Notes under the pieces: generated by a model
The model's database searches: none
Seen by the model: only the letters and a program-made list of their open reading frames with translations
What the model was told of the DNA's origin: nothing
Part shown: positions 22,286 to 38,172 of the stretch, piece after piece
Layout of the letters: the number at the start of each line of letters is the position of its first letter
Numbering within the stretch: position 1 is the stretch's first letter
Assembly: GCF_013166655.1 (NCBI RefSeq)
Contig: NZ_JABKCA010000022.1
Span: 1-64,000 of the forward strand
DNA length: 64,000 nucleotides
Direction: 5' to 3'
Source of the DNA: Lentimicrobium sp. L6
GTDB taxonomy: Bacteria > Bacteroidota > Bacteroidia > Bacteroidales > UBA12170
Position numbers and translations under genes: made by a program

Positions 22286-22358
<73 letters not shown>

Positions 22359-22368
22359 CATAAATTCA

Positions 22369-22697: not shown

Positions 22698-23885
22698 ATG
22701 CAAAACACAATAGAACAAATAAAATCCTTATCAGAGAAATATCGAGATTATACCGCAGAGAATCTTTCTAAGCTGGTTAAAATAAAGTCTTTAAGCACGC
22801 AGGAAAAAGAAGTTCAGCTCGAACTCAAACGACAAATGGAGGAGGCTGGGTTTGATGAAGTGAGGATAGATGGCCTAGGCAATGTGATAGGAAGAATTGG
22901 TAATGGAAGCACAATATTAGCTATCGATGGTCACATGGACACAGTGGATAATGGAAATCTGAGTAACTGGGATTTCGATCCTCTCGGCGGGGAGATAAAA
23001 GATGGATATGTTCATGGCCGAGGCACCGTTGATCAAGAAGGAGGCCCTGCGGCTTTTGTTACTTCTGGAAGGATTTTAAAAGAACTTGGCTTCGATAAAG
23101 ATTTGACTATATACTTTGTAGGAAGCGTAATGGAGGAAGATTGCGATGGACTATGCTGGAAATATTTGGTAGAAGAGGAAAAAATAAAACCCGACTTCGC
23201 CATCAGCACTGAACCTACCAATCTAAATATTTATCGTGGACATAGAGGAAGAATGGAAATGCATGTGAGTTTCTATGGAGTTTCTTCCCACGGCTCGGCT
23301 CCCGAAAGAGGCAAAAACGCCATTTATTTGGCTTCAAAAGTGGCTCTTGAAATTGAAAAGCTCAATGAACGATTGGCCTACGATGAGTTTTTAGGGAAAG
23401 GAAGCGTGACCATCTCTGAATTTGTTTCTGAAAGTCCATCACTATGCGCAGTTTCTGATTTTGCCAGATTACATTTAGATCGCCGCCTCACTTGGGGAGA
23501 AACTAAAGAATCTGCTGTAAAAGAAATTGAAGACCTTCTAGAAGGATTAAATGCCAAAGTTGAAGTATTAGACTATTCGGAGGAGGCCTATACTGGATTA
23601 ACCTACGGCATGGAGAAATATTATCCAACCTGGAAAATCCCAGAAGACCATCAAGTGGTTCAAACGGGTGTACAAGCTTATGAGGCACTTTATGCCAAAA
23701 AACCAAAAGTCGACAAGTGGACCTTCTCAACCAATGGAGTAGTTATCAATGGCATATACAAAATTCCAATGATAGGTTTTGGTCCTGGAAACGAAGTTCT
23801 GGCTCATGCACCAAATGAAAAAGTGGCCATCAACGATTTAGTGATAGCCTCTGCATTTTACGCCGCATTTGCTTATAAGCTTTAA
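22698..23885 (+). CDS. ygeY: YgeY-family M20 metallohydrolase (purine/selenium-linked cluster)
   Basis: A 395-residue M20 peptidase-like hydrolase. The two-zinc site is visible as 'DGHMDT' (His79, Asp81), 'GRGTVDQEGG' (Asp112) and 'MEEDCDG' (Glu146/147), with a dimerisation lid in the middle. YgeY proteins occur in clusters with molybdenum hydroxylases, and in gut bacteria these clusters are tied to anaerobic uric acid breakdown. The natural substrate is not settled; hydrolysis of an N-carbamoyl or amide intermediate is plausible. It is the first of two plus-strand genes that converge on the rest of the cluster. The 294 bp in front shows only a weak TATATTTA box (22548-22555). Confidence 0.88.
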   Translation: MQNTIEQIKSLSEKYRDYTAENLSKLVKIKSLSTQEKEVQLELKRQMEEAGFDEVRIDGLGNVIGRIGNGSTILAIDGHMDTVDNGNLSNWDFDPLGGEIKDGYVHGRGTVDQEGGPAAFVTSGRILKELGFDKDLTIYFVGSVMEEDCDGLCWKYLVEEEKIKPDFAISTEPTNLNIYRGHRGRMEMHVSFYGVSSHGSAPERGKNAIYLASKVALEIEKLNERLAYDEFLGKGSVTISEFVSESPSLCAVSDFARLHLDRRLTWGETKESAVKEIEDLLEGLNAKVEVLDYSEEAYTGLTYGMEKYYPTWKIPEDHQVVQTGVQAYEALYAKKPKVDKWTFSTNGVVINGIYKIPMIGFGPGNEVLAHAPNEKVAINDLVIASAFYAAFAYKL

Positions 23886-24059
23886 ATCTTGAACAAAAAC
23901 AGATTCCACTCAAAGAAATCGCAAAGAACTTTCGCAAAGAACGCATAAGAAAAAAAAGAGAAATGATTAGTCAGAATTGAATTTTTAAAAATTAAACATC
24001 AAACCTCTTAACCTTTATCAACTGATATCTATTCACTGTTAACTATTAACTTTTAAAAT
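23886..24059. repeat. Short gap with CGCAAAGA-type repeats
   Basis: The gap between ygeY and ygeW contains repeated units close to CGCAAAGAAC (about 23919-23945). The same family occurs near 31815, 37685 and 39125. No terminator or promoter was recognised, so ygeY and ygeW may be co-transcribed. Confidence 0.45.
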
Positions 24060-25247
24060 ATGAACATACAAGACAAAATTAAAACCCTAGCTCAATTAGA
24101 CACCGATCTATTCGGAAAAGACTTCTTATTAACCTGGGAAAAAAGCGACGATGAATTAAAAGCTATATTAGAAATTGCTGCCATTTTAAAACAAATGCGT
24201 GATGAGAATATCTCTCCAAAAGTATTCGACTCTGGTTTAGCCGTTTCCATATTTAGAGACAATTCCACCCGAACTCGTTTTTCTTTTGCCTCCGCTGCTA
24301 ACCTCCTCGGAATGGCCGTGCAAGATATGGATGAAACCAAATCACAAATCGCCCACGGAGAGACCGTGAGAGAAACCGCGAACATGATCTCATTTCTTAC
24401 AGATGCCATTGGAATCCGTGATGATATGTACCTTGGGGAAGGCCATAAATACATGCGTGAAGTAGCCGAAGCTTTAGATGAAGGTTATGAAAAGAAAGTA
24501 CTTCCAAACCGCCCAGGAATTGTAAACTTACAATGTGATATGGATCACCCTACTCAATCCATGGCCGATTTATTACATCTTAAAAATGAGTTTGGTTCCT
24601 TAGAGAATTTAAAAGGAAAGAAAATAGTCATGAGCTGGGCTTACTCTCCTAGCTATGGAAAACCCATGTCGGTGCCACAAGGAATTATTGCATTGATGAC
24701 TCGCTATGGAATGGATGTGGAATTGACCTATCCTGAAGGCTATGATTTAATTCCTGAAATCGTGGATATTGCGAAGGACAATGCGGAGAAAAGTGGTGGT
24801 TCTTTTAAAGTAAGTCATGATATGTCCAAAGCCATGAAAGATGCAGATATTGTATATCCTAAAAGTTGGGCACCTTTCCATATTATGCAAGAGCGTACAG
24901 AGTTATTGAAAAACAAAGACGTTGAAGGCTTAGAGAAATTGGAGCAGAAAGCTCTAGAAAATAATGCCAAGTTCAAAGACTGGGAGTACTCTGAGGAAAT
25001 GCGCAAAACCACAAAAGATGGGGATGCTTTATATATGCATTGTCTGCCAGCAGATATTTCTGATGTTTCTTGTAAAGATGGAGAAGTAGAAGCAGAAGTA
25101 TTTGAGAAATATAGAATCAAAACCTATCACGAAGCGGGTTTTAAACCTTATATTATTGCTGCTATGATGTTTGCCAATAAATTTAAAAATCCTGTCGCTG
25201 TATTGCAAGGAATTTTAGATTCTGGTGCCAAGCGGGTTCGCTTTTAG
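24060..25247 (+). CDS. ygeW: Knotted carbamoyltransferase YgeW
   Basis: A 395-residue member of the aspartate/ornithine carbamoyltransferase superfamily. The carbamoyl phosphate loop is STRTR (69-73), with 'MDHPTQSMADLL' in the middle and 'MHCLPADI' in the second domain. Length and motifs match the YgeW branch, whose members have a trefoil-knotted second domain and an uncertain carbamoyl acceptor. In purine catabolic clusters such an enzyme may run backwards, releasing carbamoyl phosphate for ATP formation (inference; no carbamate kinase gene is in the window). The stop codon at 25245 is only 4 bp from a large palindrome, and its 3' end is overlapped by the reading frame of the convergent hyuA. 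Confidence 0.9.
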   Translation: MNIQDKIKTLAQLDTDLFGKDFLLTWEKSDDELKAILEIAAILKQMRDENISPKVFDSGLAVSIFRDNSTRTRFSFASAANLLGMAVQDMDETKSQIAHGETVRETANMISFLTDAIGIRDDMYLGEGHKYMREVAEALDEGYEKKVLPNRPGIVNLQCDMDHPTQSMADLLHLKNEFGSLENLKGKKIVMSWAYSPSYGKPMSVPQGIIALMTRYGMDVELTYPEGYDLIPEIVDIAKDNAEKSGGSFKVSHDMSKAMKDADIVYPKSWAPFHIMQERTELLKNKDVEGLEKLEQKALENNAKFKDWEYSEEMRKTTKDGDALYMHCLPADISDVSCKDGEVEAEVFEKYRIKTYHEAGFKPYIIAAMMFANKFKNPVAVLQGILDSGAKRVRF

Positions 25248-26462
25248 AGTTAGGGTCGTCGACCCGCTTTGCGGGTTGACGACCCTAATATCAGCATCGG
25301 AGCCAATAGCTATTTGGCCTTTTTGAGGAAATAGGCCAAAGGTTTTGGCTGCATTGGTGGATGTGATAGCTACGTATTCTTGTAGTGTGATTCTATTTTC
25401 TAAGACTCCATGTTTATAGATAAGGTTTAATCTTTGCTCCACTCCTCTTGTGCCATTGGGAATTTTTCTGAAATCGTCTTTTCCCAATGCTTTTTGTTCT
25501 TTGGTAAATGGACAGTGATCTGTTCCTATGGTGGAGACCACTCCAGATTTTATGGCTGCCCATAAGGCTTCTTGATCTTCTTTTTTTCTTGGAGGAGGGC
25601 TCATGATAAAATTAGCTGCTGTTTCAAAATCTTCTTCATAAATAGAGTCATCATAGAGCAAATATTGTGGACAAGTTTCAGCTATCACTTGCTGACCTTT
25701 ATCCTGTGCTGCAGCTATATAAACCAGTGATTCTTTGGCCGAAACGTGAACTATGTAAATAGGACAATCGGCTTGTGTTGCTAATTCTATAGCTCTTTTT
25801 ACGGCTTGTGCTTCCCATTTTGCTGGACGAGAAATGGCATGATACTTCGGACTTCTTTTATTTTCTGCATAAAGTCGATTTCTAGCCTCCTCTATTTTAT
25901 CTCCCATTTCGCAATGTAGCGTTACCATTCCGCCATGTTTTGCTACTGCTTTCATTACTTTTAATAGCACATCATCGTCTAAGCCAATACTGTCTTTATA
26001 GGCCATATAGACTTTGAAACTTTTGTATCCATCTTTAATGCATTGCGCTATTTCTTGCTCCATGGAATCGCGCCATTCTATGGGACTCACATGAAAATAA
26101 CAATCAATAAGGCTATTTCTTGCTTCCTCTTGACGTTCTTTTATGGCATCTTGAAGGCTTTGTCCTTTTTGGGGTGTTACAAAATCTATGATAGTGGTGG
26201 TTCCACCTTTGAATGCTGCTTTGCTTCCTGATTCAAAATCGTCGGCAGAGAAACCTGCTGGTGTTGGAAGATGCATGTGTACGTGAGGGTCTATTCCTCC
26301 TGGAAATACATATTTGCCTTCTGCGTCTATGATTTTAGCTTTTTTAGATTGGACCTTTAGTTCTTTTCCTATTTCTAAGATTTTTCCATTCTTGCAGAGG
26401 ATGTCGGCGGAGTTTGTGGAATCTGCGTTTATGATATTTGCGTTTTTTATTAGTATTTCCAT
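25215..26462 (-). CDS. hyuA: HyuA-like dihydropyrimidinase/hydantoinase, C-terminally truncated
   Basis: A 415-residue cyclic amidohydrolase. The binuclear metal site is complete: His60 and His62 (HVH), the carbamylated Lys150 (SFKVY), His183, His239 and Asp315 (GTDH). Homologues run to about 460 residues. Here recognisable sequence stops at Ile392, and residues 393-415 are translated from a palindrome (25252-25286) and then from the antisense of the ygeW 3' end. About 50 C-terminal residues, which in this family help build the beta-sandwich and subunit contacts, are missing. The enzyme may be active with altered oligomerisation, or be a decaying gene. Its role in the cluster would be opening a cyclic amide formed during purine breakdown. 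Confidence 0.82.
   Translation of the reverse strand: MEILIKNANIINADSTNSADILCKNGKILEIGKELKVQSKKAKIIDAEGKYVFPGGIDPHVHMHLPTPAGFSADDFESGSKAAFKGGTTTIIDFVTPQKGQSLQDAIKERQEEARNSLIDCYFHVSPIEWRDSMEQEIAQCIKDGYKSFKVYMAYKDSIGLDDDVLLKVMKAVAKHGGMVTLHCEMGDKIEEARNRLYAENKRSPKYHAISRPAKWEAQAVKRAIELATQADCPIYIVHVSAKESLVYIAAAQDKGQQVIAETCPQYLLYDDSIYEEDFETAANFIMSPPPRKKEDQEALWAAIKSGVVSTIGTDHCPFTKEQKALGKDDFRKIPNGTRGVEQRLNLIYKHGVLENRITLQEYVAITSTNAAKTFGLFPQKGQIAIGSDADIRVVNPQSGSTTLTLKANPLGTRI
25252..25286. repeat. 35-bp palindrome at the hyuA/ygeW junction
   Basis: Two 16-base arms (AGGGTCGTCGACCCGC and its near-perfect reverse complement, one mismatch that would be G-U in RNA) flank a TTT loop. It sits exactly between the last conserved hyuA codon (25287) and 4 bp past the ygeW stop. 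No T tract follows, so it is not a classical terminator, although it could pause transcription between convergent genes. Confidence 0.85.
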
Positions 26463-26659
26463 TTTAAATTTGCTTTGACAAAGCCTTTTTTAAATTATTC
26501 TTTCATTTTAATTTCATACATCGCAGATGAGGAGATGACTCTTTCCTGAATACTTTGGGCTGCTTTGAAAACCTTTTTTTACTTATCACCCAGCACTTTG
26601 TGCTGAGCTATAAATATTGCGCTGCTCTGCAGCTTTGATATTTCACAATGAAAAAAGCA
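26463..26659. repeat. hyuA-ssnA gap with two small hairpins
   Basis: CAGCAC/GTGCTG (26591-26605) and GCTGC/GCAGC (26621-26633), each with a 3-base loop, lie 15 bp apart just past the ssnA stop codon. They do not match the other palindromes in sequence. No U tract follows on the minus strand, so they are more likely REP-like elements or mRNA stabilisers than terminators. Confidence 0.45.
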
Positions 26660-27931
26660 CTATAGCTTTTTCCAAAGTCTGTTGGCTTGTTCTTTTGTGA
26701 ATTTCCAAACTTCTTCTTCATTTATGGTTTGGAGGATTCTATCTTTTATGATTAGTTTTCCATTTGAGATAACATCGGTAACCATGTTTGAGGACCAACC
26801 AAATATAAAATGCCCCAAGAAATTATTTTGATTAAAGTCTGTTGGGCTTGGATAATCAAGAATGACCAAGTTGTTTTCTCCATCTCCTTTGAAACCATTG
26901 ATAGCTAAATAATGATGAACTTTTCTAAAACGCTCATAAGCAGAAACGAAATCGATATTGTCTTTTGCTTGCCCTGAGAAGAAAGCTGTTTGTGCAGAAC
27001 GAATCATATCACTATGCATTCCATCAGTTCCCAGCATAATTCTATCTCCCAAGTTTTTTCCATTGAAAAGCCCCACATTATTATTCAAATTGCTTTCCAT
27101 GTTCTGCACTACAAATGCTTTTCCGTCTCTAATCAAGTCCCGTTCCTTATTATCAATATGCAGACAATGACCTAAAATAGATTTTGAGGATTCTAAAACA
27201 CCAAACTCGTTTAGTCTTTCCACCACTCGTTTGCCATGTTTCTGCAAACACTGCTCTTGGTCATAGAAATCTTCAGCTGTGTGGATATGAATGCCGGAAT
27301 CTTTCTTCCTCATTAAATCTACAGCTCGTTTCATGGTTTCATCACCTACCGTAAAAGAAGCATGCAAGCCCACCAAAGCCTGATGATGATTCAGATATTC
27401 TTCACTTTCTTCTAAGCCCTCCTCAGCAATAGCAATGCCATCTCTGTCGGATATTTCATAACAAAGCAAATGGTCAACTCCTACTTTGTCAAAAGCTTTA
27501 GCCATGATTTCCAAGGAACCCTTCACATGATTTGGTGAGGCATGATGATCAATAACAAAAGTAGAACCAGATTTAGCACAGGCAATGGCCGTAGCCAAAG
27601 CACTGGCTTCAATCATCTCTTTATCCAATGATTTATCTAAATTCCACCAGATATACTGTAAAATCTCTAAAAAGTTATGCGGTGAATTCTTTGGAGCTGG
27701 CATTCCTCGACTTAAGGCAGAATAAGCATGGTGGTGGCCAACAGCGAAGGATTTGGTCACAAATCTCCCTTGACAATCGATAATCTGATCATCTTCAGAG
27801 ATTGATATTTTATCAAAACCATCGAAAAACGCTAAGCTTTCATCGATTCCTTCATTTACTTTTATATTGGTGTCTGAGAATTCTAATGTTTCCCAGTTGA
27901 TGTATTTTGTGTTTTTTAGGATTAGTGACAT
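26660..27931 (-). CDS. ssnA: SsnA-family aminohydrolase (guanine deaminase-like)
   Basis: A 423-residue amidohydrolase-superfamily enzyme of the SsnA branch, related to guanine and chlorohydrolase-type deaminases. Metal and substrate residues are visible in 'GHHHAYSALSRG', 'GLHASFTV', 'IHIHTAED', 'LGHCLHID' and 'LGTDGMHSD'. The ATG at 27931 gives the usual SsnA start (MSLILKN). An in-frame codon at 27964 would start inside a hairpin and add 11 unconserved residues. SsnA proteins occur with xdhD, ygfK and hyuA and probably remove an amino group from a purine or its ring-opened product. The exact substrate is unknown. Confidence 0.9.
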   Translation of the reverse strand: MSLILKNTKYINWETLEFSDTNIKVNEGIDESLAFFDGFDKISISEDDQIIDCQGRFVTKSFAVGHHHAYSALSRGMPAPKNSPHNFLEILQYIWWNLDKSLDKEMIEASALATAIACAKSGSTFVIDHHASPNHVKGSLEIMAKAFDKVGVDHLLCYEISDRDGIAIAEEGLEESEEYLNHHQALVGLHASFTVGDETMKRAVDLMRKKDSGIHIHTAEDFYDQEQCLQKHGKRVVERLNEFGVLESSKSILGHCLHIDNKERDLIRDGKAFVVQNMESNLNNNVGLFNGKNLGDRIMLGTDGMHSDMIRSAQTAFFSGQAKDNIDFVSAYERFRKVHHYLAINGFKGDGENNLVILDYPSPTDFNQNNFLGHFIFGWSSNMVTDVISNGKLIIKDRILQTINEEEVWKFTKEQANRLWKKL

Positions 27932-27959
27932 ATTCTTAATCTTCAAATCGTTTAAAAGC

Positions 27960-27979
27960 CACAACTCGGGAGAGTTGTG
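27960..27979. repeat. Hairpin between xdhD and ssnA
   Basis: CACAACTC (27960-27967) and GAGTTGTG (27972-27979) form a perfect 8-bp stem with a GGGA loop. It lies in the 60-bp gap between the xdhD stop and the chosen ssnA start, so it would sit in the intergenic part of a shared mRNA. Confidence 0.65.
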
Positions 27980-27991
27980 CTACTTGTATTC

Positions 27992-30538
27992 TTATTTACT
28001 TAGTGGTAGTTTATATCTTCGTACTCCATCAAAGCTATAAAAAGCATTGGCCACAGCGGCAGCGGTTGGAACCAGTCCGATTTCTCCAATTCCCTTGGCT
28101 CCGTATGGACCCACAGGGTCTTTTACCTCTACTCCTTTCACTATGATTTCTGGAGTTTCATGAGCTCGTAGCACTCCCAATTGCCGCATTTTATCTGATA
28201 CCAGAAATCCATCTTTCATGGGCAAATCTTCCGTTAAGGCATATCCCAAACCCATGTGAACTCCGCCTTCTATCTGACCTTCGAATAACATGGGATTCAT
28301 GATTTTTCCGGCATCATGTGCCGCAACCATTTTTTCAATATTACCCTCCTCATTCAATACACAAAGTTGGGCAGCATATCCATAGGAATAGTGAATGATA
28401 GGATTTTCGACATCAGCTCCGGGCTTAGTGGTCCAGTCGCAAACAAAAGCACCTCTATAGGTTTTTCCTACCAATTGGAGGAGGGTATTTGTAGTTAAAT
28501 CCTTCTTCAAATTTTGAGCCGCATTTATAACTGCCAATCCCACCAAAGCGGTGGCACGAGAAGAGGTAGTCATACCAGTTTTAATCTGAGCTTCGGTATC
28601 TACTTTTACTTCTATAATTGAAGGCGAAATCCCAGTTTCTTCACATAAGGTTTGGAGTGCCATATTATGAACACCCTGTCCCATCTCTGTCCAACCATGT
28701 TGTAATAAAACTTTATCTTCTGAGATGATTTCAATAATCACTTTAGATTCATCTTGCATTCCATTTCCAACACCTGAGTTTTTAATGGCACATGCTAAGC
28801 CCACAAATTTGTTTTCATAAAAATCCTCTTTCAGTGCATCTAGACATTGTCTTAATCCAACACCCTGTAATTGTTGCCCGGTGGAAGTTGTTAAACCATC
28901 CATCAATGCATTATCATAACGAAATTTCCATCGGTCAAAATTCCCTTGCTCACAAATATCATCTATACAACTTTCTAAAGCAAAAGCCACCTGATTGGCA
29001 CCAAAACCACGCATGGCACCACAGGGAATATTATTGGTATAGACGGTCTTGGCTTCAATATCTATTTGCGGAATAAAATAACCACCAGAAGCATGACCAG
29101 CTACTCTTTCCATCACCTTCATTCCTACAGAAGCATAGGCTCCAGTATCTCCAACTGCTTTTAACTTTAAGGCGGTGAGCTTTCCTTCTTTATTAGCAGC
29201 CACAGAAATATCCATAAAAACAGGATGTCGTTTGGGGTGCAATATGATGGATTCTTCTCTCCTTAAGGTAATCTTTACCGGACGATTCATTAGAAACGAA
29301 AACAATGCAGTATGACCTTGGATGCTCAAATCTTCCTTACCACCAAAACCTCCACCATTTGGAACCAGAACCACTCTTACTTGTTCTTCTTGTAATCCTA
29401 AAATCATGGCCACTTGTCTACGGTCCTCATAAACACCTTGACTTTGACTAAACAATTCCATCCCTCCTTTTCCATCGGGACGAGCCACGGCAGCTTCTTT
29501 TTCTAGAAATGCATGCTCTATTCTTTGGGTTTCATAATTCCCAGAACTTACAAAGGCAGATTCCTCAATGGCTTTGTCAGCATCACCAATGGTAAACTGA
29601 CAAGTATCGAAATGATTGGGTCTTTCTTGATGTACAGCTGCTCCATCAATGGCTTTAAAAACATCGGTTTCTGGTTCAAGCACCTCATAATCTACTTCAA
29701 TAAGTGCAATAGCTTCTCTGGCAATTTGATCGGAATCGGCAATCACACCAACAATAACATCCCCAATGAAATGCGTAGTCTTGCCCTCCTCTATCATCAC
29801 CGACCAATCCTGTAAAATCAACCCCACAACCTTCTCACCTGGTATGTCTTTAGCTAATACCACACGATGGACACCGGGATATCTTTCTGCCTCAGCAGTG
29901 TTTATTTTCAGCACCTTAGCCTTGGGATAATCGGAAAATTTTAATGCGGCAAATAACATATCATCAAAGAAGATATCATCCACAAAATCTCGTTGACCGA
30001 TAGCTGTTTCATAAGCTTGATATTTAGGCTCAGCTACACCAATCTTACCTGAAGTCTGAGTTACTTCTAAGGACTTATTTTCACAAATATGCGCACCTGC
30101 ATATTGAATGGCCTCCTCAATTTTTTTATATCCCGTACAACGGCAAAGATGAGGCTTTATAGCTTTTTGAATTTCTTCGATACTAGGATTGGGATTATTC
30201 TGTAATAAGACTTTGGTTCTACTTATAAATCCTGGAGAACAAAAACCACATTGCACTGCACCTTTATTTACAAATGCCTTAGCGATGGTATCTAAAACAT
30301 ATTTCGGAAATCCTTCAGGAGTGAATATCTCAGCCCCATCGAGTCTTTGCATTTTGGTCACGCAAGATAAAACTGCTTTACCATTGACTTCCACTGTACA
30401 AGCCCCACAGGCCGCTTGCCCTGAACAGCCATCTTTAACCGCTGTTAGATGTTGGTCTAGACGTAAATACGACAATAAGGATTGATTCAAATCTCCATCG
30501 TAATGATGTTTTTCTCCGTTTAATGTGAAATTAATCAT
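27992..30538 (-). CDS. xdhD: XdhD-like molybdenum hydroxylase (2Fe-2S plus Mo domains)
   Basis: An 848-residue xanthine-dehydrogenase-family protein. The N-terminal plant-type ferredoxin domain has Cys38, 44, 47 and 59. A second 2Fe-2S helical domain has Cys97, 100, 132 and 134. A long molybdopterin-binding part follows with 'GGGFGGKED', 'GAMRGFGANQ', 'MGQGVHN' and the active-site Glu in 'GAKGIGEIG'. No FAD domain is present, so electrons must leave through another protein. It is closest in layout to E. coli XdhD, a family linked to a labile selenium cofactor. Hydroxylation or reductive dehydroxylation of a purine is the expected reaction. Its start overlaps the stop of the upstream PLP enzyme (ATGA), indicating tight coupling. 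Confidence 0.9.
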   Translation of the reverse strand: MINFTLNGEKHHYDGDLNQSLLSYLRLDQHLTAVKDGCSGQAACGACTVEVNGKAVLSCVTKMQRLDGAEIFTPEGFPKYVLDTIAKAFVNKGAVQCGFCSPGFISRTKVLLQNNPNPSIEEIQKAIKPHLCRCTGYKKIEEAIQYAGAHICENKSLEVTQTSGKIGVAEPKYQAYETAIGQRDFVDDIFFDDMLFAALKFSDYPKAKVLKINTAEAERYPGVHRVVLAKDIPGEKVVGLILQDWSVMIEEGKTTHFIGDVIVGVIADSDQIAREAIALIEVDYEVLEPETDVFKAIDGAAVHQERPNHFDTCQFTIGDADKAIEESAFVSSGNYETQRIEHAFLEKEAAVARPDGKGGMELFSQSQGVYEDRRQVAMILGLQEEQVRVVLVPNGGGFGGKEDLSIQGHTALFSFLMNRPVKITLRREESIILHPKRHPVFMDISVAANKEGKLTALKLKAVGDTGAYASVGMKVMERVAGHASGGYFIPQIDIEAKTVYTNNIPCGAMRGFGANQVAFALESCIDDICEQGNFDRWKFRYDNALMDGLTTSTGQQLQGVGLRQCLDALKEDFYENKFVGLACAIKNSGVGNGMQDESKVIIEIISEDKVLLQHGWTEMGQGVHNMALQTLCEETGISPSIIEVKVDTEAQIKTGMTTSSRATALVGLAVINAAQNLKKDLTTNTLLQLVGKTYRGAFVCDWTTKPGADVENPIIHYSYGYAAQLCVLNEEGNIEKMVAAHDAGKIMNPMLFEGQIEGGVHMGLGYALTEDLPMKDGFLVSDKMRQLGVLRAHETPEIIVKGVEVKDPVGPYGAKGIGEIGLVPTAAAVANAFYSFDGVRRYKLPLSK

Positions 30539-31773
30539 GACATTAAGTTTTTAAGTTCATCTAAGGATGGTTTTATAGATTTTGGCATATTGATGATTTG
30601 GCTGATGGCTTTTAAATCTTTAAGTCCGCTACCCGTCAGCAAGACTATGACTGAGGAGTCTTTTGGAATTAGATTTTGAGATTTCCATTTTTCAAATCCA
30701 GCAAAAGCAGCAGAAGCAGCAGGCTCAGCAAACAAGCCTGTTTCTTTAGACAAAATAGAGGATGCTTTTAAAATTTCTTGATCGCTAACAGTCAACCATT
30801 TTCCAATATAATTTTGAATAAATTGTTGAGCCATATTAAAGTTTCGAGGAATATCCACAGAAATGGAATCCGCCACGGTATGGCTTTCCTCTACATGAAA
30901 AGTTTTACAACCAATATTTCGGACTAGATTATCACTATTCTCAGCTTGAACTGCTATTATGGTGGGTAATTTATTGATGATTCCCAATTTCAACAAATCT
31001 TCGAAGCCTTTATATACTCCACTGATAATAACCCCATCACCCACAGGAACGAAGATGAAATCAGGAATCTCCTCTCCCATTTGTTCAAATAACTCATAGG
31101 AAACGGTTTTCTTTCCTTCAATAGTCAAGGGATTAAAGGCAGTATTTCGATTATACCACCCAAACTCTTCTGTGGCTTTTATACTGAAATCGAATGCATC
31201 ATCATAAGTTCCTTTTACTGGAACTATCTGCGCACCATACATTAAAATCTGACTCAATTTTGCTATTGGAGCTGCTTCTGGAACCATAATAATGGCCTTT
31301 TGATTTTGGGCAGCGCAAATTCCGGCTAAGGAAGAACCCGCATTTCCTGTTGAAGCAGCAACAATAGTTTCAAAACCCTGTTCCTTTGCATAAGCAGAAA
31401 CTACTGCCGAAGCTCTATCTTTAAAGGAATAAGTAGGATTCTGGGAATCGTCTTTTAGGAAAAGTCTGAAATTGAGTATTTCATTCTCAAACTTCTTGAT
31501 ACAGTATAATGGAGTTTGTCCTACTCTAAGATTGGGTAGGCTTTCTAGGTTTTGAATGGGTAATAAATCTAGGAATTGATTTTGTTTAAGGGTTTTAAAA
31601 TCCACTCCTTTGTCCTGCATCTTCTTGTAATTATAAATTGCTTTAAGAACTCCCTTTGGAGGTTGATCTGTTGGGGCATCTTTACTACATATTGGACAGA
31701 GATATTTTGTTTCGGATTCCTTGTGTGTTTTTCCGCAGTCGGTACATTGGTAGTGGAACTTTGAGTTAACCAT
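30535..31773 (-). CDS. Threonine-synthase-like PLP enzyme with N-terminal zinc ribbon
   Basis: A 412-residue fold-type II PLP enzyme. A zinc ribbon comes first (Cys10, Cys13, Cys26, Cys29), then the catalytic domain with the Schiff-base lysine in 'SFKDR' (Lys118), the phosphate loop 'STGNAGSS' and a C-terminal 'LLTGSG'. By motif it is nearest to threonine synthase. However, it overlaps xdhD by four bases and sits where E. coli carries ygeX, a diaminopropionate ammonia-lyase of the same fold. A role in eliminating ammonia from an amino acid released during purine breakdown is therefore plausible (inference). Ordinary threonine synthesis remains possible. Confidence 0.7.
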   Translation of the reverse strand: MVNSKFHYQCTDCGKTHKESETKYLCPICSKDAPTDQPPKGVLKAIYNYKKMQDKGVDFKTLKQNQFLDLLPIQNLESLPNLRVGQTPLYCIKKFENEILNFRLFLKDDSQNPTYSFKDRASAVVSAYAKEQGFETIVAASTGNAGSSLAGICAAQNQKAIIMVPEAAPIAKLSQILMYGAQIVPVKGTYDDAFDFSIKATEEFGWYNRNTAFNPLTIEGKKTVSYELFEQMGEEIPDFIFVPVGDGVIISGVYKGFEDLLKLGIINKLPTIIAVQAENSDNLVRNIGCKTFHVEESHTVADSISVDIPRNFNMAQQFIQNYIGKWLTVSDQEILKASSILSKETGLFAEPAASAAFAGFEKWKSQNLIPKDSSVIVLLTGSGLKDLKAISQIINMPKSIKPSLDELKNLMS

Positions 31774-32122
31774 TTAATTTCGTTTTTTATTACTTCTATT
31801 CTCATACAAAGCCGCAGAGACGCAAAGAGTAATCTAATATACTAACAAATCTGCAATTTATTTACAAAACATAAGCTCTAGCGGATTTTCAATTTGCTAC
31901 TAACAAAACACATCGGATTACAAATCCGATGGAGCGCAATGCCCGAGTTAATAGTTTAAACAAGAAAGCTTGAATTACTCACAAATAGTACAGCTTGTTT
32001 TGTGTTCGTGAGCTCCTTTCAGTCGGTTCGAGACTTGTACAGCCTTCTATATGTGAGTTTACTTTCCTTAAACGACCATTTAGAAGGCGAGCCTAATGAT
32101 TAAGTCAAGCTTTATTGGAAAA
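31774..32122. repeat. 349-bp gap between the two PLP genes, with a palindrome
   Basis: It contains CGCAGAGACGCAAAGA-type repeat sequence (31808-31824) and a perfect palindrome, CATCGGATT/AATCCGATG with a 3-base loop (31911-31931). A further stretch (31978-32100) has a CTCACAAATAGTACAG segment and a later TGTACAG...TGTGAG that partly mirrors it. No reading frame and no full promoter were seen. It divides the minus-strand genes into two likely transcription units. Confidence 0.5.
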
Positions 32123-33595
32123 CTAATTATACTCTTTTGCTACTCCTGTCCTCTCGTTAAACGCTTCTATCTTTTCATCCCATTCGTCTACTTTGGCGTA
32201 TCGTGATTTCCAATAATTCTCATCATACCATTGGGCATTGAGTTCTTCTACTGTTTTTCCTTGCTGTTCTATCCATGTGAAATATTTAAGATTGTGCATT
32301 CGCTTCTTCTCGTAATAATTCATTTCAATCATGTGATCGATATTTAAGCCTAACATATCTGCTTCAAAACTAACGGCTGCATCTCTATTGGTAAACTCAC
32401 CATGAAGTTCTTTCTCTTCAGTTAAGCGTGATTGATACATTTCCATGGAATCTGTAGCAACAGAGAATACCACATCGTTCTCTGTCATCTCATAATACTT
32501 AGCCAACTTAATAGAACCCATCAAATTAGCAATGGAAGAAATTCCTAAATGATGAAGATGATCAACTACTGTTGGATCTATTTTCAATTCATTCTTTAAA
32601 TAATCGTGGCCTGCTTTCTCATTAAACAAGCGCATCAATCGGATGTTAGGATTATCATCGATTCCAGCTACCATATCCATATTTCTGATATTATGTATCC
32701 ATGGAACATGCTTATCACCTATACCTTCGATACGGTGCTCTCCATATCCATTTTCCAATAAAGTAGGACATTGCAAAGCTTCTCCAGCACAGACTTTAAG
32801 GTTTGGATATACCTCTCTTAAATAATCGGCACTACCCAAAGTACCAGCAGAACCTTGAGTGAGGAACATTCCAGCAAAGCGATCTCCATCATTTTTTACT
32901 TGATTAAAAACCTCCTCCATGGCATGACCAGTTACCGCATAATGCCATAATGGATTTCCTATTTCTTCAAACTGATTGAGATTAACAATACTATCTCCTC
33001 TTTCGGCTTGTAATTCTTTTACTTTATCGTAAATCTCCTTCACATTACTTTCGGTTCCAGGAGTCGCAAAAACCTCAGCTCCTACTTTGTGTAACCAATC
33101 GAAACGCTCTTTGGACATTCCTTCTGGTAAAACAGCAATGGATTCACAACCTAAAAGGTAGGAATCGTATGCTCCTCCTCTACAGTAATTTCCGGTAGAT
33201 GGCCAAAGTGCTTTTTGTCGAGTGGGATCGAAACGCCCATCGATTAGCTTCTCTACCAAAGGTCCAAATGTAGCACCTACTTTATGTGCTCCAGTTGGAA
33301 AATATTTTCCAATTAATAAGATAACCCTTGCTTTTGTTCCTGTGAGTTCAGAAGGCAGTTCCAAAAAATTCACATCTCCAAAACCTCCACCCGATTTCAC
33401 CGGTTCATTCTTCCAGTTGATACGAAATAAATTCAGAGAGTTTAAATCCCACAATCCTATATTTTTTAGTTTATCCTTGATCTTTTCTGGTATCAGATCC
33501 GGATTTCTCATTTGTTTATAAGTTGGTAATATAATATGTCTTTCACGACATCTCTGAATAGTGTTTTTTAATACAGATTCGTTAGTGCTCATCAT
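32123..33595 (-). CDS. Fold-type II PLP-dependent enzyme of unknown substrate
   Basis: A 490-residue cysteine-synthase/tryptophan-synthase-beta superfamily protein. The lysine in 'TGAHKVGATFG' (Lys105) is the expected PLP Schiff base. 'STGNYCRGGAYDSYLLG' is the phosphate-loop region, and a glycine-rich 'LTQGSAGTLGSADYL' lies further on. The N-terminal 85 residues and the long C-terminal helical extension are not typical of cysteine synthase. It begins 23 bp after ygfK and should be co-transcribed with it. A lyase or ammonia-eliminating role in the purine pathway is inferred from context only. Either of two consecutive ATGs (33595 or 33592) may be used. Confidence 0.7.
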   Translation of the reverse strand: MMSTNESVLKNTIQRCRERHIILPTYKQMRNPDLIPEKIKDKLKNIGLWDLNSLNLFRINWKNEPVKSGGGFGDVNFLELPSELTGTKARVILLIGKYFPTGAHKVGATFGPLVEKLIDGRFDPTRQKALWPSTGNYCRGGAYDSYLLGCESIAVLPEGMSKERFDWLHKVGAEVFATPGTESNVKEIYDKVKELQAERGDSIVNLNQFEEIGNPLWHYAVTGHAMEEVFNQVKNDGDRFAGMFLTQGSAGTLGSADYLREVYPNLKVCAGEALQCPTLLENGYGEHRIEGIGDKHVPWIHNIRNMDMVAGIDDNPNIRLMRLFNEKAGHDYLKNELKIDPTVVDHLHHLGISSIANLMGSIKLAKYYEMTENDVVFSVATDSMEMYQSRLTEEKELHGEFTNRDAAVSFEADMLGLNIDHMIEMNYYEKKRMHNLKYFTWIEQQGKTVEELNAQWYDENYWKSRYAKVDEWDEKIEAFNERTGVAKEYN

Positions 33596-33618
33596 TTTCG
33601 TATTTATATGTTCTCTAT

Positions 33619-36600
33619 TTATTTTCTTAAAAAATCTTTGGCTCCTTGCAGTAGCAAACTCATTTGAGCGGCTATGGATAAGTCAATTTCGAAGTTTGTT
33701 TTTTCTTTTATTTTTATTTCAATAGGCTGAATGTTTTTATCTAGTGTTAAACGATAGTTTTGTGTTTCAAATTCTAAGGACCCCTCCTTATATCTTAAGT
33801 TATATTTATTTTGTTCTTTATAAAACAGGAGTTCTGTTATTCCTCCTTCTGTATTCAAATAACAACCCTCTTTTTCTTTCTCAAATTCCTCGATTGTTAA
33901 GTATAAATGTGGTTTTTCTTGATATGGAGCTCCTGAAGAAGGACAGAAAGTATTACAGTTTCCGCATTGATTACACCAATCGGCTATATGAAGAATTTGC
34001 TGTGATTGACTTATATTAAAAGGATACGCTTCTTCTTTCTCCATTTCCCCTTGTCTAACTTTAATATTTTGAAGCTGGAGATTTTGAGGAGTCACTGCAT
34101 AGGCATGGAAAGCTAAATTTGGACAAACCGTGGTGCAAATATTACAAACTTCATCGCATAATAGGCAACGAGAAGCCTCTTCCATGGCTTGTTCCTTAGT
34201 CAAGGTAGTTGAAACGAGTTTAAAATTCTTCCTGTCATTGAGATTTGTTTCAATGGGTGTTTGAGCCGCTATTCTCTTGGATTTCTTTAGCATCAATTCC
34301 TTGACAGACTTGGCTTCTCTTTTCTCTTGATGTACAGAAACATATTCCAAACCTAGATTTTCTAGAATTTCCTGAGCTGCTTTTCTTCCATCTCCAATGG
34401 CATTGATGGCTGTTGAGGCGCCACGCAAAGCATCACCTCCAATATACACTTGAGGAAGCTTGGTTTGATATTTTCCTTTTTGAATTTTTAATTCATCAGC
34501 TGTAGCAAAATCTATATCTAAATCTTGGCCAATAGCAGGAATGATGGTATCAGCTAAGATTTCAAAATCAGAACCTGTTATCTCTGTGATAGAAGCTCTT
34601 CCCGACTCGTCTTTCTTCCCCAAACTCATTTTACAACAAAGTAAGGATTGTACCTTGCCATTCTCAGTCTTGATTTCTAATGGAGCAGCGAGTTGAACGA
34701 TTTCAACACCCTCCTCTAAAACGGCTTTTATTTCGCCCAAATCAGCTGGCATTTGCTTGATGGTTCTTCTGTAAACGATAGTTACTTTTCCATTCTTGCC
34801 AACCATTCTATAAGCTGTTCTGGCAGCATCCATAGCTGTATTCCCCCCACCGATGATGATGACGTTCTTTGCTATTCCACTAGGTTTATTATCTTTTACT
34901 TTGAAGAGAAAATCTAAGGGATCTAAAACACCCTCCGCTTTTATTCCATCAATATTTAAAGCTTTTGAGACCTGAGCTCCAGCACCAATAAAGATGGCCT
35001 GATTCTCCTTTTGAAGCTTTTGAAATTCTTGCTTCTTAATTAGATGATTATAATGAACCTTTACACCTGCATCTATAATTTTTTGCATATCGAAACCGAT
35101 GGCCTCATCGGTCAATCGGAAGGAAGGGATAGCACCAGATGCCATTCCACCACCTTGCTCTTTTGACTCGTAAACATTTACTTCTACACCAGCAATGGCT
35201 AAATAATAAGCACAAGATAAGCCTGCGGGTCCAGCTCCAATAATGGCTGCTTTTTTATCTCCAATTTTTTCTTGATGCCCTCCTCCGTTCTTCTTAGCCT
35301 CTTCTGCTATAAATCTTTTTATTTCTCTTATGAGTAAAGGGCTGTCATAATTGATTCTGGTACATTTCGTTTGACAAAGGTGATCACAAACCATTCCTGT
35401 TGTTAATGGAAAAGGATTGGTTTCCTTAATGACTTGTGCTGCTTTTTCAAAATCGCCTTTTGCAGTATAATGCATATAATCAGGGATGCCTTGATTGGTT
35501 GGACAAGTATCCACACATGGCGCATGAGCACAATCGAAATATCCGAGTTCTCTATCGGTTTTGATACTTGGATCGTTAAATCCATTCTTCTTATAGGCCT
35601 TATTATTCTTTAATTCTTCTATATATTTTTCCAAATAATCGAAAGAGGATTCTGCTTTCTCAATTTTTTCTAGAGCTTGAATATACTGTTGCAATCTGGT
35701 ATATCCACCAGGTTTCAAGAGGTCACTACAAACGGTAACTGGTGACAATCCGCAATTTATTATATCTTGAATATTAAAAGCATCAGCACCACCAGAAAAG
35801 GAAATATCCAATTCATTATTGAATTCTTTTTGGAGTTTATAGGCCACATTCATGGATATCACATGCAAAGCCTTTCCACTCATATACATCATTTCCTCAT
35901 TTGAAGGAAATACTTCTTTATGATTGGCACTCTCCAAAGTATTGGTGAGCTTTAAACTGAAACAAACATCTTGTTCTTTTGCCTTAGTACTAAGGTTTTT
36001 GATGATTCCGAGCGCATCTTTATATTTTAAATCGTGCTCAAAAGCAATATCTGGAACCTGAGTTTCAAATCCCGATGCTTTCATTATTTCATGCAGCTTT
36101 TCCTTTCCTAAAAGTGTAGGATTTAGTTTAATGGCAGTGTGAATCTTCTTTTCCGTGATCAGATACGCTCCAATTTTTTCAATTTCATCAGAAGGACAAC
36201 CATGCATAGTGGATAGCGTGATATTATTAGAAAGTTGAGGATTAATTGACAAATTCAAAACATTGGGATAAATATGTTTAATGCTTTCTATCTTTTCAAC
36301 TAATTCGTCAGAAGCATCATCCATCTTCTCGAAAAACCACTGCACATTATCTTTGAGGATGCCTTCGTAATTATAACCTATACTCATATTGAAAATAAGT
36401 CCAGGTTCTATGGAATCCATCCAGCCGAATTTGTCTCTTAAGATATGAATGATAATCCAAGCATTTAAATACTGCTTAAAGGATTGATGTATTTTCAATT
36501 CCTGAGACCACTCGCAATTATAACCTTCGTCTTGCATGTCGATACAAGGTTTAGAAACCTCAAGTTCATCGAGTGTTTGAATGGTTTTGAGCTCAATAAA

Positions 36601-36840
36601 ACGAGCGCCAGTTAACCAAGCTGCAATAATATTTTGTGCCATTTGAGAGTGAGGCCCTGCAGCTACGCCAATTGGCGTTTCTAATAAATCACCAAACCTT
36701 TCACCATGAATTTCTTTATGGTTTAAAGGATTAAAAAACTGTTCCTCTTGGATTCCGAAAATAGATTTGTTGCTGTCATATTGCTTCAAAATGATTTCTA
36801 ATAATGAAGCCAATGATATAGTGGAAAAATAATCTGTCAT
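33619..36840 (-). CDS. ygfK: YgfK-type iron-sulfur flavoprotein oxidoreductase
   Basis: A 1073-residue multidomain redox protein, close in length to E. coli YgfK (about 1030). Residues 1-430 resemble a dihydroorotate/dihydropyrimidine dehydrogenase TIM barrel, with 'TPIGVAAGPHSQMAQN'. Residues 435-500 hold the GltD-like 4Fe-4S cysteines (Cys437, 442, 446, 485, 489, 493). FAD binding is at GAGPAG (535-540) and NAD(P) binding at GGGNTAMDAA (664-673). The C-terminal part has ferredoxin-like cysteine groups 'CLLCDEVCNICTTVC' and 'CNQCGNCNTFC'. The name selenate reductase is historical. In this locus it more likely reduces a purine or pyrimidine-like intermediate, or accepts electrons from the FAD-less XdhD. 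Confidence 0.9.
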   Translation of the reverse strand: MTDYFSTISLASLLEIILKQYDSNKSIFGIQEEQFFNPLNHKEIHGERFGDLLETPIGVAAGPHSQMAQNIIAAWLTGARFIELKTIQTLDELEVSKPCIDMQDEGYNCEWSQELKIHQSFKQYLNAWIIIHILRDKFGWMDSIEPGLIFNMSIGYNYEGILKDNVQWFFEKMDDASDELVEKIESIKHIYPNVLNLSINPQLSNNITLSTMHGCPSDEIEKIGAYLITEKKIHTAIKLNPTLLGKEKLHEIMKASGFETQVPDIAFEHDLKYKDALGIIKNLSTKAKEQDVCFSLKLTNTLESANHKEVFPSNEEMMYMSGKALHVISMNVAYKLQKEFNNELDISFSGGADAFNIQDIINCGLSPVTVCSDLLKPGGYTRLQQYIQALEKIEKAESSFDYLEKYIEELKNNKAYKKNGFNDPSIKTDRELGYFDCAHAPCVDTCPTNQGIPDYMHYTAKGDFEKAAQVIKETNPFPLTTGMVCDHLCQTKCTRINYDSPLLIREIKRFIAEEAKKNGGGHQEKIGDKKAAIIGAGPAGLSCAYYLAIAGVEVNVYESKEQGGGMASGAIPSFRLTDEAIGFDMQKIIDAGVKVHYNHLIKKQEFQKLQKENQAIFIGAGAQVSKALNIDGIKAEGVLDPLDFLFKVKDNKPSGIAKNVIIIGGGNTAMDAARTAYRMVGKNGKVTIVYRRTIKQMPADLGEIKAVLEEGVEIVQLAAPLEIKTENGKVQSLLCCKMSLGKKDESGRASITEITGSDFEILADTIIPAIGQDLDIDFATADELKIQKGKYQTKLPQVYIGGDALRGASTAINAIGDGRKAAQEILENLGLEYVSVHQEKREAKSVKELMLKKSKRIAAQTPIETNLNDRKNFKLVSTTLTKEQAMEEASRCLLCDEVCNICTTVCPNLAFHAYAVTPQNLQLQNIKVRQGEMEKEEAYPFNISQSQQILHIADWCNQCGNCNTFCPSSGAPYQEKPHLYLTIEEFEKEKEGCYLNTEGGITELLFYKEQNKYNLRYKEGSLEFETQNYRLTLDKNIQPIEIKIKEKTNFEIDLSIAAQMSLLLQGAKDFLRK

Positions 36841-36939
36841 ATGCTATAAATATTGACCTGTAAATTTAATAAAAAGTCTTGAATATGCTTTATTTACACT
36901 ATTTTTGAAATCTTATTTAGATTTTGTCTAGAAAGAATT

Positions 36940-37581
36940 ATGGATTATAATATGCAAATCGACTGTTCAGTCATTATTTTAGCTGCAGGATATTCATCGA
37001 GGATGGGTAGTCCTAAATTTGCGCTGGCGATTAACTCGCAAAGCAACTTTCTCGAAAACATCATTCATCAGTATTTAAATATTGGAATTCGAAACATTAT
37101 TGTGGTTCTAAACTCCGAAGGGGAAAAATATATTGAGCAACATCCTCTAAGAATTTCTAATCCTATTCAGTTAATCATCAATGAACATCCTGAATATGAA
37201 AAGTTTTATTCTTTGAAACTTGGGCTTTCTGCTCTTGAAAATAATGGTTATTCTTTCATTCATCCTAGTGATTTGCCTGTAGTTGAGGAAAGTACATTGA
37301 AAGAGATTTATGGTAAAAGAGAAGAGGCCGATTTTGTAAAACCTGTCTTCAATAAAAAAGGTGGCCATCCTATTTTATTGTCTCCTAGGCTAATAAAAGA
37401 ATTGGTGAATGAGAAGAAGGGGGATTGGAAGCTGAACGAGTTTCTTGGGGAATATTCAAGCTGTTCGGTTGAGGTGGATGATGTGGGGATTCTTGATAAT
37501 ATTAATAGTCGGGAGGAATATTTGGTGTTTTTGGAGAAGATAAAAAAGGAGAACACAGATGACACTGATTTTGCGGATTAG
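36940..37581 (+). CDS. mocA: MocA/YgfJ-like molybdenum cofactor nucleotidyltransferase
   Basis: A 213-residue MobA/MocA-family nucleotidyltransferase. The nucleotide-binding loop 'LAAGYSSRMGSPK' and the metal-binding 'HPSDLPVV' are clear. Enzymes of this group convert Mo-molybdopterin to the cytosine dinucleotide form used by xanthine-dehydrogenase-type hydroxylases, which fits the XdhD-like gene in the same locus. It is transcribed divergently from ygfK across a 99-bp gap. The last ten or so residues (rich in Asp and Thr) are encoded by an intergenic-type repeat, so the native C-terminus may have been altered. Starts at 36940 or 36952 are both possible. Confidence 0.83.
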   Translation: MDYNMQIDCSVIILAAGYSSRMGSPKFALAINSQSNFLENIIHQYLNIGIRNIIVVLNSEGEKYIEQHPLRISNPIQLIINEHPEYEKFYSLKLGLSALENNGYSFIHPSDLPVVEESTLKEIYGKREEADFVKPVFNKKGGHPILLSPRLIKELVNEKKGDWKLNEFLGEYSSCSVEVDDVGILDNINSREEYLVFLEKIKKENTDDTDFAD

Positions 37582-37755: not shown

Positions 37756-38121
37756 TCAGTTATCATTTAAATGATCTAAAATCAAGGACTGGTTAAGCTT
37801 CAATAAATCTAAAATCATCTCCTTCATCACTTCTGGATATTGTTCTTCTCTGGTTTCTGTATTACAAAAACAGGAATAGACAGCGGATTCTTCTACATAA
37901 TTATTAAGAGATAAATCTATATCATTGATTTGAATCTCTAAATACTCTTCAAACAAACCTAAATCTTCTGAGATTATCACTCCTGCTGCCAGAATTTTGA
38001 AGGTTTTGATTTGGATTCCCAGCTTTTGAGCCAAAGGAATGAAAAGAGCATTATTGAGCTGCTGTTCAAATTCTTTATTTATAGAAATGCCTTTAAGCTT
38101 AGTTGTGATTTTAGTTTTCAT
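37756..38121 (-). CDS. Small protein of unknown function
   Basis: A 121-residue, probably cytosolic protein without recognisable domain, signal peptide or membrane helix. It is acidic overall, with a short Cys-x-Cys near its C-terminal third ('YSCFCNTETRE'). The ATG at 38121 was chosen. A GTG at 38139 would add six residues and collide with a TAAATTTG promoter box on the minus strand (38146-38139). It is divergent from the EamA transporter. The gene call rests on a clean frame and a well-placed promoter box. Confidence 0.6.
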   Translation of the reverse strand: MKTKITTKLKGISINKEFEQQLNNALFIPLAQKLGIQIKTFKILAAGVIISEDLGLFEEYLEIQINDIDLSLNNYVEESAVYSCFCNTETREEQYPEVMKEMILDLLKLNQSLILDHLNDN

Positions 38122-38138
38122 GGGGAAATATTGGGTCA

Positions 38139-38167
38139 CAAATTTAATGATAAAAGATTTACATTTG
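38139..38167. promoter_or_regulatory. Divergent -7 boxes for the 37756 gene and the EamA gene
   Basis: TAAATTTG on the minus strand (38146-38139) and TACATTTG on the plus strand (38160-38167) lie back to back, 13 bp apart. Both fit TAnnTTTG. The plus-strand box ends 5 bp before the EamA ATG, which implies a leaderless or nearly leaderless mRNA. No TTG is at the ideal -33 spacing for either. Confidence 0.5.
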
Positions 38168-38172
38168 CGCCC

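Follow-up and report, generated by a model that had tools for sequence, protein, structure and literature searches.

How does the oxygen-independent degradation of uric acid come to its end in a bacterium where the lyase of the last step cannot be found? This question is raised by a cluster of nine open reading frames (ORFs) at positions 22,698 to 37,581 of a 64,000-nt stretch (hereafter the window) of contig NZ_JABKCA010000022.1 of Lentimicrobium sp. L6, whose genome assembly is 96.5% complete. In the pathway reconstituted in 2025 for Escherichia coli and Clostridioides difficile, XdhD-YgfM reduces urate to 2,8-dioxopurine, from which YgfK and SsnA yield ureidomethyl-hydantoin; HyuA then gives 2,3-diureidopropionate, which YgeW and YgeY strip of its ureido groups, and in the last step YgeX cleaves 2,3-diaminopropionate to pyruvate and ammonia (PMC12507026). 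A commentary treats as open in which order the ureido groups are cleaved and what the stereochemistry is (PMC12990295). A first-pass annotation of the window had recognised an anaerobic cluster of the yge/ygf type, which is borne out by families scoring over cut-off (Table 1), this type being known since 2025 as reductive uric-acid degradation (PMC12507026). It had rightly read a purine-type pathway, but "purines" was too broad, the likely substrate being uric acid via 2,8-dioxopurine. The two pyridoxal phosphate (PLP) enzymes that it listed are indeed present, both with the PALP domain, but it overlooked the absence of YgeX and that neither of the two is of the YgeX family. Named here PLP412 and PLP490 after their lengths, they are at the centre of the reading that we favour with moderate confidence, namely that the cluster encodes reductive, oxygen-independent urate degradation with its terminal lyase swapped, PLP412 standing in for YgeX and PLP490 acting at or near the same step. 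The observations that carry this reading are the gene content and family assignments of the cluster, the failure to find YgeX, the co-occurrence of the genes across genomes and a pattern of swapping between PLP412 and a genuine lyase.

YgeX was found neither in the cluster nor in the rest of the genome, where the best score on its family model, TIGR03528, is 37.8 bits against a cut-off of 532, and this best match is PLP412 itself; it is because YgeX was not found that the cluster is filed as a variant of the pathway. PLP490 gives no match to TIGR03528 at E 0.001 and reaches 20.7 bits against 276 on a second lyase model, NF006058, while the score of PLP412 on NF006058 is not among the best 25 matches listed. 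YgeX, a diaminopropionate ammonia-lyase, is like PLP412 and PLP490 a fold-type II PLP enzyme with a PALP domain; PLP412 and PLP490 nonetheless fail the YgeX family models, and it is PLP412 that occupies the place of the lyase beside PLP490. In a sample of 395 Bacteroidota genomes, PLP490 occurs in 35, from 27 of 171 genera, the window genome being the sole positive of its own class. The TIGR03528 cut-off is reached in none of these 35, and in 28 of them, the window's included, no protein scores above 54.2 bits.

The main argument for PLP412 doing the job of YgeX is that PLP412 and the lyase take the same position. Scanning genome contigs with a PLP490 alignment gave at least 593 relatives, the best 80 of which, together with 20 fetched regions, made up 100 loci, and PLP490 was labelled in 92 of these. 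PLP412 is found in 50 of the 92 (a count that leaves out a 22% identical PLP412-like match in locus L138), diaminopropionate ammonia-lyase in two, both in none and neither in 40; where at least two uricolytic genes are present (44 loci), 27 loci have PLP412 and one has the lyase. In 43 of the 50, PLP412 and PLP490 share a strand and no other labelled gene separates them. As for the two loci with a lyase, L136 (SAR324) runs carbamate kinase, ygeW, ygeY, lyase and PLP490, and L165 (Bacteroidota) ygfK, PLP490 and lyase, to be compared with ygfK, PLP490 and PLP412 in the window. Both lyases are genuine members of their family (422 and 425 bits on NF006058), and in the PLP490 tree both loci fall in a supported clade of five rows (100/96) with L117 and L168, which have ygfK, PLP490 and PLP412. 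Resting on the gene order of two loci, this suggests that PLP412 and the true lyase occupy the same place in the cluster.

The family assignment of PLP412 brings in a first alternative, namely that it is an ordinary threonine synthase lying here by chance and that PLP490 alone replaces YgeX. PLP412 alone among the proteins of the genome exceeds the cut-off of the threonine synthase model TIGR00260 and, in its structure model (pLDDT 89.9), the best matches among solved structures are threonine synthases (ThrC); PLP490, for its part, is present in all 34 sampled genomes with a cluster-type carbamoyltransferase (see below). We nevertheless regard this alternative as improbable. PLP412 is probably not a threonine synthase, judging from its sequence and its genome, since no recognisable homoserine kinase accompanies it: no protein of the genome passes the ThrB model TIGR00191 (best 36.7 against 168), which 11 of 14 control genomes do. 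The Arg of the NPxR motif common to four solved ThrC sequences, which we take to contact the substrate phosphate, gives way to T, L or M in all 25 PLP412 proteins aligned, including that of the window. The repeated pairing with PLP490 on one strand also speaks against a chance neighbour, and PLP490 adjoins a true lyase in L136 and L165 and is therefore not its substitute there. Two other proteins of the genome match TIGR00260 below cut-off, one a cysteate synthase (TIGR03844, 486 against 325), the other a PALP-like protein of 311 amino acids (aa) that looks by eye like a threonine/serine dehydratase. With no thrB, and no thrC besides PLP412, over cut-off, threonine auxotrophy is possible, or else an unrecognised route.

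PLP490 passes no NCBIfam model, its scores being 94 against 344 for cysKM, 93.5 against 351 for cysK and 64 against 510 for cystathionine beta-synthase (CBS). In its structure model (pLDDT 91.0), the core matches cysteine synthases, cyanoalanine synthases, O-ureidoserine synthase and CBS, both by Foldseek and by structure comparison, with Z of 32-36 among the 50 matches listed, the part after about residue 411 being barely covered; such a likeness of fold does not establish what the enzyme does. With relatives 53-88% identical to the window protein, the TGxHK motif (residues 101-105), in which Lys105 is the presumed PLP lysine, and the STGN loop S133-T134-G135-N136 are invariant (42 of 42). 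PLP490 may also serve a purpose other than uricolysis, since it is frequently met where uricolytic genes are lacking; in 14 loci without such genes (in one of which no PLP490 ORF was picked), the neighbours are varied and no second function is clear from them, those noticed by eye including glycine cleavage genes, selA/selB and an amidinotransferase. The possibility of PLP490 being a racemase was also considered. It predicted the loss of Asp120 in the lyases paired with PLP490, this residue and Asp189 being active-site residues of YgeX, with Asp120 presumably needed for the D-isomer; the lyases of L136 and L165 keep both residues and give the idea no support.

Across the Bacteroidota sample, the presence of PLP490 follows that of the carbamoyltransferase of the pathway, counted as cluster-type when above 160 bits on the YgeW model. 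YgeW itself is over cut-off in 6 of the 395 genomes, and a shorter carbamoyltransferase, scoring 168-244 bits on the same model and 332-344 aa long in 13 fetched regions, is found in 28 further genomes. PLP490 and a cluster-type transferase are together in 34 genomes, PLP490 is alone in one (G326) and the transferase is alone in none (Fisher p = 2e-48, for genomes that are not independent). They lie on the same contig in 26 of the 34, with starts 1.2-19.5 kb apart. PLP412 is present in 34 of the 35 genomes with PLP490 and, in 25 of these 34, at most 20 kb from the transferase or PLP490. The fetched regions hold ygeY, the transferase, PLP490, ssnA, xdh genes and ygfK, often with PLP412 and mocA, on draft contigs and with varying completeness.

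The short YgeW-like transferases stand in the place of YgeW in 28 of the 34 genomes with the cluster (L072-L084, e.g., L072:15749-16780 and L073:7175-8173); the two that were scanned match both the ornithine carbamoyltransferase and the YgeW models and pass the cut-off of neither.

The reactions that we infer for this organism would run as follows. XdhD, the molybdenum cofactor of which would be matured by the mocA-like protein, would reduce urate to 2,8-dioxopurine, which YgfK would reductively dearomatise before SsnA opens the ring. HyuA would open ureidomethyl-hydantoin, YgeW would phosphorolyse one ureido group with release of carbamoyl phosphate and YgeY would remove the second to leave 2,3-diaminopropionate, while a carbamate kinase from elsewhere in the genome would make ATP from the carbamoyl phosphate. 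The threonine-synthase-like PLP412 would then break down 2,3-diaminopropionate in place of YgeX, and PLP490, with its cysteine-synthase fold, would act at or near this step. More tentatively, PLP412 might represent a class of 2,3-diaminopropionate ammonia-lyase that arose independently of YgeX and now goes under the name of threonine synthase, and PLP490 a conserved new enzyme of the same step, acting for instance on the D-isomer or on freed aminoacrylate, the pair then marking an alternative end of uricolysis in Bacteroidota, Cloacimonadota, Chloroflexota, Synergistota and other phyla.

The pair could also jointly run a different end of the pathway, e.g., from diaminopropionate to serine or another amino acid and not to pyruvate. 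Both enzymes occur together across phyla, PLP412 resembles threonine synthase, an enzyme that adds water after elimination, and PLP490 resembles beta-replacing enzymes and is retained even beside diaminopropionate ammonia-lyase, all of which would fit such an ending. It is unlikely all the same, as no product is known for it and the arrangement in L136 and L165 suggests that PLP412 and the lyase are interchangeable, which in turn favours the same product.

Several findings weigh against the swap of YgeX for PLP412, or against the urate pathway as such. As regards the lyase, 7 of the 35 genomes with PLP490 do encode a lyase-like protein of 300-511 bits on TIGR03528 outside the cluster; the eight genes concerned are on other contigs than PLP490 or more than 100 kb away, and their neighbourhoods contain no other uricolytic gene, one neighbour resembling YgfT at 35%. 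As regards the loci, 16 of the 44 in which two or more uricolytic genes are present have neither PLP412 nor lyase in the stretch examined, and 24 of the 92 PLP490 loci have fewer than two uricolytic genes and neither of the two enzymes, several of these contigs being short. PLP412 was not found in the 17-19-kb stretches of L136 and L165, the rest of both genomes not having been searched. In 9 of the 34 genomes, neither the transferase nor PLP490 lies within 20 kb of PLP412 in the draft assemblies; in one of them (G014), PLP412 is on a different contig (L195), together with ssnA, ygeY, hyuA and an xdh gene. As regards the proteins, Asp120 and the segment with Asp189 of E. coli YgeX are missing in PLP412, so that its chemistry must differ in detail from that of YgeX, and we know of no activity for PLP412 or PLP490. 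The SsnA models are the best matches of the ssnA-like protein, which scores below their cut-offs (372 against 444 and 337 against 455.5) and has the metal motifs. A dedicated YgfM subunit binding flavin adenine dinucleotide (FAD) was not found, FAD_binding_5 occurring in the genome only in a xanthine dehydrogenase small subunit on contig C10. The first-pass annotation had seen no purine transporter in the window, and even genome-wide there is no match to the NCS2-type purine permease family (PF00860). Finally, Glu606 of E. coli XdhD, proposed to orient urate, has no counterpart in the aligned XdhD of the window, which weakens the XdhD assignment without refuting it.

The last two points bear on a further alternative, in which the substrate of the cluster is not urate but a different ureido or hydantoin compound, or else purines that are oxidised to xanthine, with XdhD being a selenium xanthine dehydrogenase. 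Besides the lack of Glu606 and of an NCS2 permease, it can draw on the low identity of XdhD to that of E. coli (24%) and on some Chloroflexota loci: in L133, for example, the PLP pair lies with a transferase, a carbamate kinase, a hydantoinase-like gene and an ABC transporter of Bmp type, and neither ssnA nor ygfK is present in the stretch examined. It appears improbable, though, since YgfK and SsnA are reported to act together on 2,8-dioxopurine in vitro and since C. difficile degrades urate with an XdhD only 25.6% identical to that of E. coli (PMC12507026). In addition, the window genome appears to encode a conventional xanthine dehydrogenase outside the cluster, i.e., the small subunit on C10 (478 aa, L176:6167-7600), which stands with an XdhC-like gene and without an adjoining large subunit, and a second molybdenum-binding ORF (766-aa open frame) on contig C13.

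Set beside known systems, the swap of the terminal lyase falls within a familiar kind of variation. The E. coli K-12 yge/ygf cluster (NC_000913.3; PMC12507026) shares with the window homologues of ygeW, ygeY, hyuA, ssnA, ygfK, xdhD and mocA, its XdhD being of another type; the 36-kb E. coli region alone has ygeX, ygfM, yqeA, yqeB, yqeC and uacT, and no further PLP enzyme gene is annotated there. Closest in gene content is the selenium-linked cluster EF_2563-EF_2582 of Enterococcus faecalis, for which, as in the window, homologues of ygeW, ygeY, ygeZ, ygfK and ssnA are listed, and which has selD nearby, one locus (EF_2570) being listed for both xdhA and xdhC; it differs by having ygeX (EF_2579) and yqeA (EF_2575) inside the cluster (PMC2276186). 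Enzyme swaps in this pathway are already known, because C. difficile has UacX for YgfK and UacY for YgeW, with XdhD described without YgfM; however, C. difficile keeps YgeX (PMC12507026), whereas in the window it is YgfK and YgeW that are retained and YgeX that would be replaced. Among openly licensed PMC papers, searched by titles and abstract openings, none was found to link a threonine-synthase-like or cysteine-synthase-like enzyme to this cluster. The pathway itself being known, what is new here is probably the variant ending together with two probably misnamed enzymes.

Should the swap of YgeX for PLP412 be right, the enzymes with which many anaerobes finish the pathway would currently be filed under threonine synthase or cysteine-synthase-like proteins, and a search for urate degraders that takes YgeX itself as its marker would overlook these organisms. 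The published survey of SsnA clusters used the PALP domain (PF00291) as the marker of YgeX and, because YgeX, PLP412 and PLP490 all share this domain, could not have seen such an alternative ending; the phyla that it names in its main text exclude Bacteroidota, the string "bacteroid" being absent from that text (PMC12507026). Two conserved PLP enzymes would also gain a testable substrate, 2,3-diaminopropionate, and the question of stereochemistry in the pathway (PMC12990295) a candidate enzyme.

All nine ORFs of the cluster were found at the coordinates given in Table 1. NCBIfam models uphold YgeY, YgeW, HyuA, YgfK and a selenium-type XdhD among the families that had been named from the sequence alone, but SsnA and MocA fall below cut-off. 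The layout, which had then seemed unfamiliar, is not peculiar to this genome: ygfK, PLP490, PLP412 and xdhD follow each other in the same order and on the same strand in 7 of the 100 loci (unlabelled genes being skipped), and such recurrence across loci excludes a chance grouping. In L092, likewise, ygfK to hyuA are on one strand with ygeW converging on that block.

Table 1. Genes of the cluster, with positions in the window, scores (bits) against family cut-offs and identity of the products to their E. coli counterparts
Gene	Product or family	Position	Strand	Family evidence (score and cut-off)	Identity to E. coli protein
ygeY	M20 hydrolase	22698..23885	+	TIGR03526 504 > 321.5; NF009555 522 > 321 (NCBIfam)	52%
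ygeW	Knotted carbamoyltransferase	24060..25247	+	TIGR03316 650 > 500; other YgeW model 695 > 453	67%
hyuA	D-hydantoinase	25215..26462	-	TIGR02033 496 > 393	39%
ssnA-like	Aminohydrolase	26660..27964 (probable start 27,931)	-	SsnA models best matches, below cut-off	33%
xdhD-like	Fused 2Fe-2S/molybdenum hydroxylase	27992..30538	-	TIGR03311 Se_dep_XDH 849 > 830	24%
PLP412	Fold-type II PLP enzyme	30535..31773	-	TIGR00260 191.1 > 167.1; Pfam PALP	
PLP490	CysK/CBS-like PLP enzyme with N- and C-terminal extensions	32123..33595	-	Pfam PALP; no NCBIfam model over cut-off	
ygfK	Fe-S/flavin reductase	33619..36840	-	TIGR03315 889 > 835	36%
mocA-like	Cytidylyltransferase, divergent from ygfK	36940..37581	+	PF12804 79.8 > 27; MocA model 101 < 186	

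For the seven proteins other than the PLP enzymes, 13 of 14 catalytic or metal-binding motif patterns were matched, including STRTR, HPTQ and HCLP in YgeW and GEIG in XdhD; the one miss is the C-x4-C-x2-C pattern of XdhD, in place of which the window protein and all 5 close relatives examined have C-x5-C-x2-C. The 3' end of hyuA shares 33 bp with ygeW, and its profile match ends at position 400 of 454, while the gene of PLP412 shares 4 bp with the start of xdhD. In ssnA, the ATG at 27,931 is probably the true start, since the profile matches the TTG-started ORF only from residue 14 onwards. Some 0.4 kb past mocA, a hydrophobic ORF of 342 aa (38011-39039) has by eye the look of an EamA/DMT-type transporter; its residues 42-342 gave no NCBIfam match at 1e-20. 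The first-pass annotation had seen no carbamate kinase in the window; one is encoded outside the cluster, elsewhere in the genome, a single protein being over cut-off (393 against 358, C8:72619-73539); across the loci, the carbamate kinase family is present in 23.

As to the origin of the cluster, the PLP490 of the window groups with that of L092 (98/90) and then of L094 (100/99), both Bacteroidales metagenome-assembled genomes (MAGs), and next (100/96) with Cloacimonadota, a spirochaete, Neomarinimicrobiota and one Bacteroidetes MAG, not with most other Bacteroidota, a tree grouping which suggests that the PLP490 gene moves between phyla. A tRNA-Pro (GGG) lies at 22286-22359 of the window, 340 bp upstream of ygeY. 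A genomic island was considered as well; no second copy of the 3' end of this tRNA was detected in the window (14-30 bases, 1-2 mismatches), which leaves the idea without attachment-site evidence. The cluster has a G+C content of 0.378 and the remaining window one of 0.354, a difference too small to argue from.

More widely, the best 80 of the at least 593 relatives of PLP490 come from Bacteroidota, Cloacimonadota, a spirochaete, Chloroflexota, Bacillota and Synergistota, and further from Actinomycetota, Burkholderiaceae, SAR324, Heimdallarchaeota and others. Some of the Chloroflexota loci are extended by ABC permeases (in 11-12 loci), by a Bmp-type binding protein (in 6) and by a hydantoinase-like gene, as seen in L133, L137, L142 and L159, where the PLP pair stands with a varying set of carbamoyltransferase, ABC permeases, Bmp-type protein and hydantoinase-like gene; a family-2 glycosyltransferase gene is also met between the two PLP genes in Chloroflexota loci. 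In the window genome, two selD genes are over cut-off (413 and 369 against 125), with yedF (203 against 110) beside one of them, and a 733-aa ORF (L001:322-2523) has by eye a cysteine desulfurase-like domain fused to SelD.

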